Source: Malikia granosa
GTDB taxonomy: Bacteria > Pseudomonadota > Gammaproteobacteria > Burkholderiales > Burkholderiaceae_C
Direction: 5' to 3'
Assembly: GCF_002980595.1 (NCBI RefSeq)
Contig: NZ_PVLQ01000011.1
Coordinates: 62,001-126,000, forward strand
DNA length: 64,000 nt
The position numbers were made by a program, and so were the translations under genes. The notes beneath the pieces are model-generated. The model did no database searches, had not been told where the DNA came from, and was given only the letters and a program-made list of their open reading frames with translations. Below, one piece after another: positions 3,258 to 22,037 of the stretch (positions are counted from its first letter, which is position 1; every line of letters begins with the position of its first letter).

Positions 3258-7129
<3,872 letters not shown>

Positions 7130-7130
<1 letters not shown>

Positions 7131-14931: not shown

Positions 14932-15398
14932 CGTGTCAACGTTTTCTTGGGGAGTGATCGGCAGGAGCTCGACCGGTCGCGACCTGCCGCGTCATGCATG
15001 AATGAGCCCACCGGGTCATGGCAAGCGCTGCGATGCCAGTCCAGACCCGTAGGATGAACTTTAATGTTTCTTTTTTAACATATGAAATATTCTTAATTGA
15101 TATTTCATATCTGCAAAATAGAAAAATTTTGATCAATCAGCGGCGACCGCCGCAACTGGCTGTCGCTGGCCGGGCACACCACGCTGCCGCAGGGCGCCGT
15201 CGACGACTGACCGCTGCAGATGGCTTCGGCCAGTTCGGTCTTGACCTGCTTGCGGGCCTGCCGAGGTGGCCGACGCAGGCTTTACATTGCTAGCATCAAC
15301 TGTGAAATTTCCATTCAGATAGATAAATAACAATCTCGTCACATGGATGTTTCCAACGAAGAAACAATCCAGGACTTGAATGCCGAACCGGAGACAAG
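14932..15398. other. 467-bp non-coding gap between chemoreceptor and LysR genes
   Basis: It separates two divergently transcribed genes and must carry both promoters. Two unusually AT-rich stretches stand out (about 15056-15140 and 15290-15345) around a GC-rich middle with no recognisable gene. The first contains the palindrome listed at 15080-15110. No RNA gene was recognised. Confidence 0.6.
15080..15110. repeat. AT-rich palindrome, candidate operator
   Basis: ATATGAAATAT (15080-15090), 9-nt spacer, ATATTTCATAT (15100-15110): eleven perfectly paired bases made almost only of A and T. It lies about 150 bp upstream of the chemoreceptor start and 290 bp upstream of the LysR start. A regulator-binding site for the chemoreceptor promoter is the simplest reading. 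Confidence 0.5.
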
Positions 15399-19552: not shown

Positions 19553-21262
19553 ATGAAACCCGTCAACCGCCTACTCTGGCAGCGCTTTCTCGACATCGCA
19601 GCGCCCTACTGGCGCTCGGAAGAGCGCTGGCCGGCCCTGGGCCGGCTGATCCTGCTGCTGCTGCTGCTGCTGGGCCAGACCGCCTTTGCCGTGCTGCTCA
19701 ATGAGCAGACCGGCGAATTCACTTCGGCACTGGCGGCACGCGACAGCCACCGCTTCTGGCAGGCGATCCTGCTCTGCCTGGGCCTGCTGGTCGGCGCGGT
19801 GCCGACCTATGCCTGCTACTACTGGGTGCGCGACAACCTGGGCAACCACTGGCGGCGCTGGCTGACCCAGCGCTTCCTGCTGCGCTACTTCGGCGACCGC
19901 CACTATTACTCGCTCAACGGGCTGGCGGCGCTCGACAACCCCGACCAGCGCATCGCCGAGGACATCAACACCTTCACCCAGCGCTCGCTGTTTTTCCTGT
20001 TGATCCTGATCGGCGCGACCATGCAGCTGACCGCCTTCAGCCGGGTGCTGTGGGGCATCTCGCACACCCTGGTCTATTTCCTGGTGGTCTATGCGATCGC
20101 CGGCACGCTGATCACGCTGCGTGTCTACGGCAAGCCCTTGACCGGACTGAACTTCCGCCAGCTCAAGCGCGAGGCGGACCTGCGCTACAGCCTGGTGCGG
20201 GTGCGCGAGAAGGCCGAATCGATCGCGCTCTACCGCGGCGAACCGCAGGAGCTGCAGCAGATCCGGCGCCGTTTCGGCCTGGCCTACGACAACTACCGGC
20301 AGCTGATCCGGGGCCAGTTCTTCCTGAACCTGTTCCAGTATGGCTACAGCATGCTGACCATCGTGCTGCCGAGCATGCTGATCGCCGAGCGCGTGCTGTC
20401 GGGCGAGCTCGAGGTCGGCATGGCGGTGCGCGCCGCCGGTGCCTTCACCGCGGTGCTGAGCGCGGTGTCGGTGGTGATCGACAACTTCGAGAGCCTGAGC
20501 CGCTTCGCTGCCGGCATCGAGCGCCTCGATGCCTTCTCGCACCAGCTCGACAGCCCGGCCGGTAGCGGCGACAGGCAGGCATCCGGCCGCATCGAGTCGA
20601 TCGAGGGGGCGCGCCAGCTCGAGCTCGACGGCGTCACCTTGCAGACCCCAGGCGCCGAACGGGTGCTGGTGCAGGATCTGTCACTGGCAGTGGAACCGGG
20701 CCAGGGCCTGCTGGTCGTCGGCGCCAGCGGCTGCGGCAAGAGCTCGCTGCTGCGCGCCATCGTCGGCCTCTGGGACAGCGGCAGCGGCAAGATCCTGCGC
20801 CCGCATCCGGACGAGATCCTGTTCCTGCCCCAGCAGCCCTACATGCTGCTGGGCAGCCTGCGCAGCCAGCTGCTCTATCCCAGGCAGGAGCGCCAGATCG
20901 GCGACCAGGAACTGCTGCTGCTGCTCGAGCGCGTCAACCTGCCCGACCTGGCCGAGCGTTCGGGCGGCCTGGACGCCGAGCTCGACTGGGAAAAGACCCT
21001 GTCGATGGGCGAGCAGCAGCGGCTGGCATTTGCCCGTCTGCTGCTGACGCAGCCGCGCTACGCGATCCTGGACGAGGCGACCAGCGCGCTCGACCTGGCC
21101 AATGAACGCCGGCTTTATGAACAGCTGCTGGACAGCCAGACCACGCTGATCAGCGTTGGCCATCGCTCGACCCTGCTGGCCTATCATCAGCAGGTGCTCG
21201 AGCTCAGGGGCGACGGAGACTGGTGCGTTTGCCTGGCTCGGGACTACCAATTCCAGCATTGA
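19553..21262 (+). CDS. ABC transporter with fused membrane and ATPase domains, SbmA/YddA type
   Basis: 569 aa, inner membrane. The N-terminal ~340 residues form an SbmA/BacA-like membrane domain with long Leu-rich helices (LGRLILLLLLLLGQTAF) and the family's NPDQRIAEDI motif. The C-terminal ~200 residues are an ATPase: Walker A GASGCGKSS, Q-loop FLPQQPYMLLGSLR, signature LSMGEQQRLA, Walker B YAILDEATSALD. YddA-type transporters are half-size and act as homodimers; the substrate is unknown. The coding sequence ends directly against the AT-rich origin-like segment. Confidence 0.9.
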   Translation: MKPVNRLLWQRFLDIAAPYWRSEERWPALGRLILLLLLLLGQTAFAVLLNEQTGEFTSALAARDSHRFWQAILLCLGLLVGAVPTYACYYWVRDNLGNHWRRWLTQRFLLRYFGDRHYYSLNGLAALDNPDQRIAEDINTFTQRSLFFLLILIGATMQLTAFSRVLWGISHTLVYFLVVYAIAGTLITLRVYGKPLTGLNFRQLKREADLRYSLVRVREKAESIALYRGEPQELQQIRRRFGLAYDNYRQLIRGQFFLNLFQYGYSMLTIVLPSMLIAERVLSGELEVGMAVRAAGAFTAVLSAVSVVIDNFESLSRFAAGIERLDAFSHQLDSPAGSGDRQASGRIESIEGARQLELDGVTLQTPGAERVLVQDLSLAVEPGQGLLVVGASGCGKSSLLRAIVGLWDSGSGKILRPHPDEILFLPQQPYMLLGSLRSQLLYPRQERQIGDQELLLLLERVNLPDLAERSGGLDAELDWEKTLSMGEQQRLAFARLLLTQPRYAILDEATSALDLANERRLYEQLLDSQTTLISVGHRSTLLAYHQQVLELRGDGDWCVCLARDYQFQH

Positions 21263-21500
21263 TACTCAAATCTTTTCTCTTATTAACTCTTTTTAGATTA
21301 ATAAAAGAAATAGTCGTAGTAGTAGAGCCTCGCCAGTTTCCGTGGACAAGGCTTTTTTGCGCCATCGAATCAAATGACTGGACAGTGGACAAGCTTGTGG
21401 ACAAGGTTCGCGGTGGCGCGGGAGTCGATGCGAGCAAGCCTGCCGTCGTGACCAAGTCTGTGGATAAGCTGCTGATGCCTTCAATCTTGTACACAGCCTT
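21263..21500 (+). other. Origin-like segment: AT-rich stretch, DnaA-trio-like run and five DnaA boxes
   Basis: There is no gene here. In order: an AT-rich stretch (about 21263-21310) with a near-perfect 12-bp inverted repeat; a run of triplets in one register at 21299-21325 (TAA TAA AAG AAA TAG TCG TAG TAG TAG), eight of nine fitting the DnaA-trio pattern [T/A]A[G/A]; a 15-bp GC-rich spacer; then box-like 9-mers CGTGGACAA (21341-21349), AGTGGACAA (21384-21392), TGTGGACAA (21396-21404), TGTGGATAA (21459-21467, a perfect box) and TTGTACACA on the other strand (21487-21495). The order and strand match basal unwinding elements of bacterial origins. It could be the true oriC or a DnaA-titration or reactivation locus. 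Confidence 0.6.
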
Positions 21501-21543
21501 GTCAAGAAGCCGCACGCAGCCCTCGGCGCTGGAGGGCCGACCG

Positions 21544-21987
21544 TCAGGGTACAACGGCGACTGGCCTGGTCAACGCGGCTTGCTGCAGTTCCAGGCAGTC
21601 TTCCAGCAGGGCTTCCATGTCGCCCGGCTGTACGGCAGAGAAGCCGGTCATCTGGTACTGCTGGAAATAGGCGTTGCTCGAGAACATCAGCGGCCAGTTG
21701 GCACAACGGCGCTGCATCAGCGGAAAGCGCGCCAGCAGTTCGACGTCGTAATGCCTGGGGTCCTGCTTCAGGTTGTGCCACAAGGCATCGAGTGCCGCCG
21801 CTGGGCCCTCGAGGTATTCCATGAAGCTGTGATCGAGGTAGATCAGCTGGCCGGTGATCCCTTCAGCCTGGTTGGCAAGCCGCGCCCGCTCGACGAGCAG
21901 GAACATGTGCAGCGGTCCGATGCGATTCACGATCCGGGACCGGTACAGCAGGCCTTCAATGGCTGGTAGCAAGGGCTGGAGTTCCAT
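21544..21987 (-). CDS. BLUF-domain-like protein with Gln-to-Glu change at the photocycle site
   Basis: 147 aa, a single domain. It aligns with BLUF blue-light sensors across the core: Y15 (LLYRS), N39 (ANQAEGITG), FMEYLEG at 55-61, and W98 (RRCANWPLMF). Canonical BLUF proteins have Gln at the position of E57 (AppA Gln63), which contacts flavin N5 and drives the photocycle. Flavin binding is plausible, but normal photochemistry is doubtful. The start is the ATG at 21987, preceded by GGGAG; an ATG at 22023 lies inside the phasin terminator. It may be read partly from the phasin promoter. Confidence 0.72.
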   Translation of the reverse strand: MELQPLLPAIEGLLYRSRIVNRIGPLHMFLLVERARLANQAEGITGQLIYLDHSFMEYLEGPAAALDALWHNLKQDPRHYDVELLARFPLMQRRCANWPLMFSSNAYFQQYQMTGFSAVQPGDMEALLEDCLELQQAALTRPVAVVP

Positions 21988-22000
21988 GGACGCTCCCGTG

Positions 22001-22037
22001 AAAAAGCCCCGCAACCCGGTCAAGGGTGCGCGGGGCT
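22001..22037 (-). terminator. Rho-independent terminator after the phasin gene
   Basis: On the minus strand AGCCCCGC (22037-22030) pairs with GCGGGGCT (22012-22005), with an inner ACCC/GGGT pair, followed by a run of T. A textbook intrinsic terminator 20 bases after the phasin stop codon. Confidence 0.88.

Follow-up and report, generated by a model that had tools for sequence, protein, structure and literature searches.

The oriC of E. coli combines a DUE, the box R1, an IHF site and further DnaA boxes, and it is not adjacent to dnaA. Other DnaA-binding loci are known in bacteria, such as datA and DARS, which are clusters of DnaA boxes without an unwinding element, and in a bipartite oriC a single origin can include two DnaA-binding regions. 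Bipartite origins have been named for B. subtilis and H. pylori (PMC4403523). The basal unwinding system (BUS) is the DnaA box together with the DnaA-trio of bacterial oriC (PMC6669920, PMC8287927, PMC10721633), and a box no more than 16 bp from the trios was the limit used in one of them (PMC8287927). Putative double origins in bacteria were tabulated by Gao in 2015, the table including Ralstonia pickettii 12D, and they were selected by boxes, Z-curves and the neighbouring genes dnaA, hemE and parB (PMC4403523). In the same article the natural use of more than one origin per bacterial chromosome stands as an open question in 2015 (PMC4403523), and a Vibrio cholerae strain has been described with a natural single chromosome carrying two functional elements, presumably origins (PMC10225481). 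Among the best 10-25 papers of each full-text search in an open-access library, none dealt with the Malikia oriC or with oriC modules scattered over the chromosome in Comamonadaceae.

Genomic setting

The window, i.e. the whole 64-kb stretch of DNA that was analysed, spans bases 62001-126000 of the 130,798-bp contig C13, which belongs to a Malikia genome of 3.83 Mb in 162 contigs. Its left part carries dnaA, dnaN and gyrB without recF between them, and genes for BktB and a phasin were also found. These features pointed to the Burkholderiales, and an initial assignment to Pseudomonas was rejected on their account. Four minus-strand ORFs near dnaA gave no match in a Pfam search. The GyrB ORF (4461-7130) encodes 889 aa and so exceeds the best family model (803) by about 86 aa, which may reflect an insert or a wrongly placed start. 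In addition, ORF 9645-10604 matches weakly a model for phosphorothioated-DNA-binding restriction endonucleases (78 bits; cut-off 180). The lowest G+C content of the window (0.15 per 60 bp) was found at 15071-15130 and 15280-15339, with a 618-aa ORF that lacks an NCBIfam match on one side and a LysR-type gene on the other, and this DNA has no match to the profile R1 described below.

A preliminary description had pointed to origin-like DNA at 21263-21500. This DNA belongs to a 281-bp gap, filled by what we call site A, between the gene of an SbmA/BacA-like ABC transporter (19553-21262, plus strand) and a convergent BLUF-domain gene (21544-22023, minus strand), both recognized with Pfam. In a plasmid search that gave 63 records, the best 20 all matched the ABC gene and none of them the site.

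Structure of site A

The order of AT-rich DNA, trio, spacer and boxes that had been claimed here was recovered as a complete oriC module at 21275-21508 on the plus strand, covering positions 3-236 of the 239 positions of profile R1 (E 1.2e-33), represented in alignment A1 and found also by an HMM built without the genus (E 5.2e-27). The AT-rich stretch (21263-21309, plus strand), the putative DUE, is seen in alignment A1 and in the 60-bp window at 21255, whose GC content of 0.217 is the second lowest across the 64 kb. It is followed on the plus strand by a DnaA-trio run (21310-21325), conserved in A1 and formed by ATAGTCG and then the core TAGTAGTAG at 21317-21325, and by a 15-bp spacer (21326-21340), the spacing being nearly fixed across modules. 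Box 1, the trio-adjacent DnaA box TTGTCCACG (21341-21349, minus strand), is a putative binding site and appears weakened in its sequence and in A1. Among the 51 aligned modules its last base is confined to three A copies, those of G000, G003 and G004, the other 48 keeping the consensus T. Further on lies an IHF-like site (21368-21380, plus strand), where IHF may bind, with one mismatch to WATCAANNNNTTR, the sequence that we take to be the IHF consensus and used for scoring.

The remaining boxes are a weak one, TTGTCCACT (21384-21392, minus strand), the box TTGTCCACA at +79 (21396-21404, minus strand), box 2 at +142, which is the perfect DnaA box TTATCCACA in the box search and in A1 (21459-21467, minus strand), and an inverted weak box, TTGTACACA, at +170 (21487-21495, plus strand). 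Only the boxes at 21396-21404 and 21459-21467 are within one mismatch of TTATCCACA. The box list of the preliminary description holds for the perfect box TGTGGATAA at 21459-21467, perfect on the minus strand, for TGTGGACAA at 21396-21404 and for the inverted box, a 7/9 match, but has to be amended for its two 8/9 matches: CGTGGACAA (21341-21349) and AGTGGACAA (21384-21392) reach 8/9 against TGTGGACAA and 7/9 against the reverse complement of TTATCCACA. The same description was right in giving the rpmH-dnaA gap one perfect and one relaxed box, namely TTATCCACA at 1741 (minus strand) and TTTTCCACA at 1809 (plus strand). These two boxes (1741-1817), which the box search finds and where the R1 search gives no module up to E 1, probably serve the autoregulation of dnaA. 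Site A is about 18-20 kb from dnaA, so it is not within 1 kb of that gene.

From this layout a course of events can be proposed in which DnaA would bind the box array and IHF would bend the segment that separates box 1 from box 2. Starting at box 1, a DnaA oligomer would then grow along the trio strand and open the AT-rich stretch, after which the helicase would load. Site A is predicted to be able to unwind and may fire less because its trio-adjacent box is weakened.

A module shared by the family

Among 60 relatives searched, three other genomes of Malikia (G001, G003 and G004) showed similarity to site A, and its trio-box core occurred also in other genera. The pattern TAGTAGTAGN{13,17}YGTGGRYAA matched 77 of the 399 genomes analysed from this GTDB family, whereas the reversed pattern, used as a control, matched none of the 399. 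Of 52 candidate modules one, L048 (G177:C21, near the contig start), was removed beforehand, its trio being extended into a long TAG repeat, well over the usual three; the other 51, site A included, make up alignment A1 and served for training profile R1. Common to the aligned modules are an AT-rich stretch, in most cases ATAGTNG followed by TAGTAGTAG, then box 1, located at +23 to +26 relative to the core start, an IHF-like site and box 2 at about +141 to +145, and many have an inverted box at about +170 or +182. The IHF-like site has 0-1 mismatch in 31 of 56 modules, a count made with the above consensus and without a random control.

At E up to 1e-4 profile R1 matched 380 of the 399 family genomes and 344 of the 350 good ones. 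A hand tally gave one match in 259 genomes, two in 106 and three in 15, numbers which are lower bounds, five candidates per genome having been scored. In genus g109 and in G007 (L033-L036, L010) two modules lie about 0.4-0.6 kb apart and cluster by position in the tree, and both look old and kept. In an order-level sample R1 was found in 25 of 100 genomes, three of them family members, and outside the family the matches were weaker (best E 4.7e-17).

Within the window R1 matched only site A, besides a weak reverse self-match inside it (E 0.17). Since 12 of the 51 training modules came from Malikia, the HMM was rebuilt with the 39 non-Malikia modules, and site A was still the top match among the Malikia copies, with 92.1 bits against 80.9 and 75.4 for the two other modules of the same genome, B and C. 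In 60 first-order Markov simulations of the 64-kb window the best HMM match had E 0.83.

The module as a marker of oriC

The module marks oriC in the relatives, often away from dnaA, and it is well supported that oriC can be displaced from this gene in the group. Fifty-seven genomes have module and dnaA on one contig; in 13 the module is within 1 kb of dnaA, by coordinates directly downstream of its end, and in 44 it is at 16-299 kb, a ratio of 44:13 that is no census, many genomes having been picked via the strict pattern and others added with one R1 match. Left out of the 57 were genomes with module and dnaA on different contigs, among them G001, G002, G168, G239 and G339, and those in which the distance crosses the record start (G100, G148, G279 and G282). 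The module L028 (G009:C31, 9344-9558) lies just downstream of dnaA and, judged by eye, before an apparent dnaN, which is close to the arrangement of the 13.

GC skew was followed in strips of 120-400 kb from eight relatives assembled in 1-3 contigs. The cumulative minimum was at most 7 kb from the module in five strips (G099, G308, G022, G141 and G008) and away from it in G287, G189 and G336, so the rule that the minimum of the strip is the module was rejected. In G287 and G189, whose strips both start at dnaA, the minimum lies 4-6 kb from this gene. The two-sided jump in 40-kb half-windows peaked at most 6.4 kb from the module in six of the eight (G308, G022, G141, G336, G008 and G287) and missed it in G099 and G189; in 20-kb half-windows the same distance was obtained in three (G141, G189 and G008), the best module being in the top 10% of positions in all but G287 (7/8). 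The Fisher-combined p was about 3.6e-5 (40 kb; corrected for module number, floor 0.01), a value qualified by the choice of the two-sided jump and of the 40-kb width after the cumulative-minimum result was in view. At dnaA the jump was unremarkable in the three testable relatives, 27-98% of positions being as high or higher.

Moreover, a pattern which we take to be the parS consensus was searched in 20 non-Malikia genomes, and among the matches listed the parS-pattern sites were closer to the module than to dnaA in nine of nine genomes (G287, G007, G320, G252, G008, G174, G022, G384 and G141), at about 3-55 kb from the module. The reversed pattern, used as a control, was found in none of 22 of 25 genomes and gave one match in G336, two in G394 and five in G384.

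Three copies in Malikia

The genomes G000, G003 and G004 contain three modules each, none of them beside dnaA: A adjoins the ABC gene, B lies between an aminotransferase gene and a potF-like gene, and C between minC and copA. The offsets +24, +79, +142 and +170 recur in the copies, and no copy has boxes within one mismatch at all four. In a tree of 56 modules A, B and C group by locus (support 0.99, 0.76 and 1.00, respectively) and all twelve Malikia modules form one clade (0.94). These locus clusters inside a single Malikia clade therefore suggest a duplication within the lineage before its species split.

B is intact in all five Malikia genomes compared and is the only copy of which this is true. 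A is present in four of them (G000, G001, G003 and G004), with the AT-rich stretch and trio kept in all four copies of alignment A1 and the trio-adjacent box altered in three. No A match was obtained in G002, and in Malikia sp. STC_66, which may coincide with G002, about 10 bp separate the ends of the ABC and BLUF genes and the module is absent. A scan of 72 ABC-gene loci showed a neighbouring module at three, each of them from the Malikia group. Intact copies of C occur in three of the five genomes, and remnants are found beside minC in G001 and G002.

C is probably the older site because the module of the related genus g138 sits at minC: it adjoins this gene in G141 and G422 and is about 1.1 kb off in G365. 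In G141, the genome with the best DnaA score outside Malikia, copA is 1.3 kb further on. In G189 the module is beside copA, and the 3-kb locus of G305 has neither minC nor copA. The direction of the module relative to minC is opposite in Malikia C and in g138. The order of the three copies was taken from synteny with G141, because the Malikia genome is in 162 contigs; in G141 minC is 100 kb and the aminotransferase gene 119 kb from dnaA, so that A, B and C would be spread over about 100 kb. Contig ends alone place A and B at least about 53 kb apart, and in G004 B and C lie inverted at a distance of 38 kb.

Which copy may be the working origin

On balance we lean towards reading site A as one of three homologous oriC modules that arose by duplication in Malikia, with B as the principal candidate, C at the probable older place and A as an auxiliary. 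In the genome under study all seven exact parS-pattern matches are on C72, the contig of B, 33-49 kb from it, and C13, the contig of A, has no exact match; abutting contigs would still leave at least about 64 kb between A and these sites. Because of these matches on its contig and its conservation in all five genomes, B is the best candidate for the principal origin today. Judging from the sequence, A is less likely to be the main origin than an auxiliary or alternative one, and it may be weightier than ranked here given its highest leave-genus-out score.

The GC-skew plot recommended in the preliminary description was run contig by contig and gave a weak and mixed picture in Malikia, with no jump at dnaA (93% and 53% of positions reached at least the same value). 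At A the jump falls among the highest 0.9% of positions for 20-kb half-windows and the highest 36% for 40 kb, in a genus of weak skew; at B it is unremarkable (46% and 86% in G004, 53% in G003), and C had too little flank. The strand-split skew at 4-fold sites was noisy and had no clean sign change at B or C. Altogether the contig skew of Malikia (raw, change-point and strand-split 4-fold sites) is too weak for choosing among A, B and C. A scheme of converging forks between B and C in G004 was dropped, the 4-fold-site analysis having contradicted the raw skew.

Alternatively, Malikia may initiate mainly or solely at site A, as an oriC displaced from dnaA by 18-20 kb, with B and C spare or decaying, which we regard as unlikely though far from negligible. 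This is close to what had first been proposed, and much of that proposal stands, the DNA being of origin type and oriC being displaceable from dnaA in this group, as the spread of R1, the skew and the distances indicate. The score of A, its 20-kb skew change next to none at dnaA and its intact state in four of five Malikia genomes would agree with such a role. That this very copy is the working oriC is less likely: there are two further complete modules, and it is B that has the parS matches on its contig and full conservation. Moreover, the trio-adjacent box is altered in three of the four A copies, and STC_66 lacks a module beside the ABC gene.

To the same limited extent it is conceivable that A is a relic or a DnaA-titration or reactivation site, datA- or DARS-like, that no longer initiates. 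A strong titration site was the other role first suggested, and the weakening of box 1 in three of four copies would fit a relic or such a site, as would the decay of related copies into the C remnants beside minC. However, pure titration is less likely because the AT-rich stretch and trio are kept in all four A copies, and titration should not need them; their presence sets A apart from datA and DARS as defined and lowers the probability of a titration role without removing it. The score of A, above those of B and C of the same genome, also speaks against this reading.

A slightly less probable extension of the three-module reading is that A, B and C all start replication, in a natural multi-origin chromosome, and that duplication of modules followed by loss moves origins off dnaA family-wide; two or three R1 matches were found in 121 of the 380 genomes with a match (hand tally, lower bound).

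We consider it very improbable that the rpmH-dnaA or dnaA-dnaN region holds the working origin, site A being unrelated to replication. The two boxes at 1741-1817, the 13 of 57 compared family genomes with a module at dnaA and the raw skew minima of G287 and G189 near this gene would be in its favour, but the dnaA of the window has no R1 match up to E 1 and neither Malikia nor the three relatives have a skew jump there. A chance resemblance or a promoter region, as AT-rich intergenic DNA can mimic a DUE, is hardly credible in view of the pattern, R1 and simulation results against their controls, and no promoter is expected because the gap lies between the convergent ABC and BLUF genes.

Comparison with known systems

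With three homologous complete modules conserved by locus, together with remnants and a module-free site, Malikia offers a natural series for the duplication, relocation and loss of origins, and lends itself to testing how origins change place and whether several can serve a single chromosome. In addition, profile R1 indicates the place of oriC for most genomes in a large family, in which counting coordinates from dnaA would often err by tens to hundreds of kilobases.

Site A resembles the BUS in having a DnaA box, a short spacer, a trinucleotide run on one strand and AT-rich DNA beyond, with a spacing within the limit used in PMC8287927. It differs in that box 1 departs from TTATCCACA at two positions (7/9) and that there are three module sites, all of them away from dnaA; unwinding at A is a prediction. 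The AT-rich DNA, box, IHF-like site and further boxes follow in the same order as in the E. coli oriC, likewise away from dnaA, whereas the clear trio run, the separation of box 1 from box 2 by about 118 bp, the other neighbouring genes and the presence of up to three copies per chromosome are unlike it. Unlike the two regions of a bipartite oriC, each Malikia copy has its own AT-rich stretch and trio, and 38 kb can lie between copies (B and C in G004). The situation in Malikia is similar to the putative double origins tabulated by Gao in 2015 in that a chromosome has more than one oriC-like region, and another member of the Burkholderiales is in that table (PMC4403523). As far as the table and its selection go, the Malikia regions differ from those double origins in being homologous modules with a shared geometry, conserved by locus and accompanied by decayed remnants (PMC4403523).
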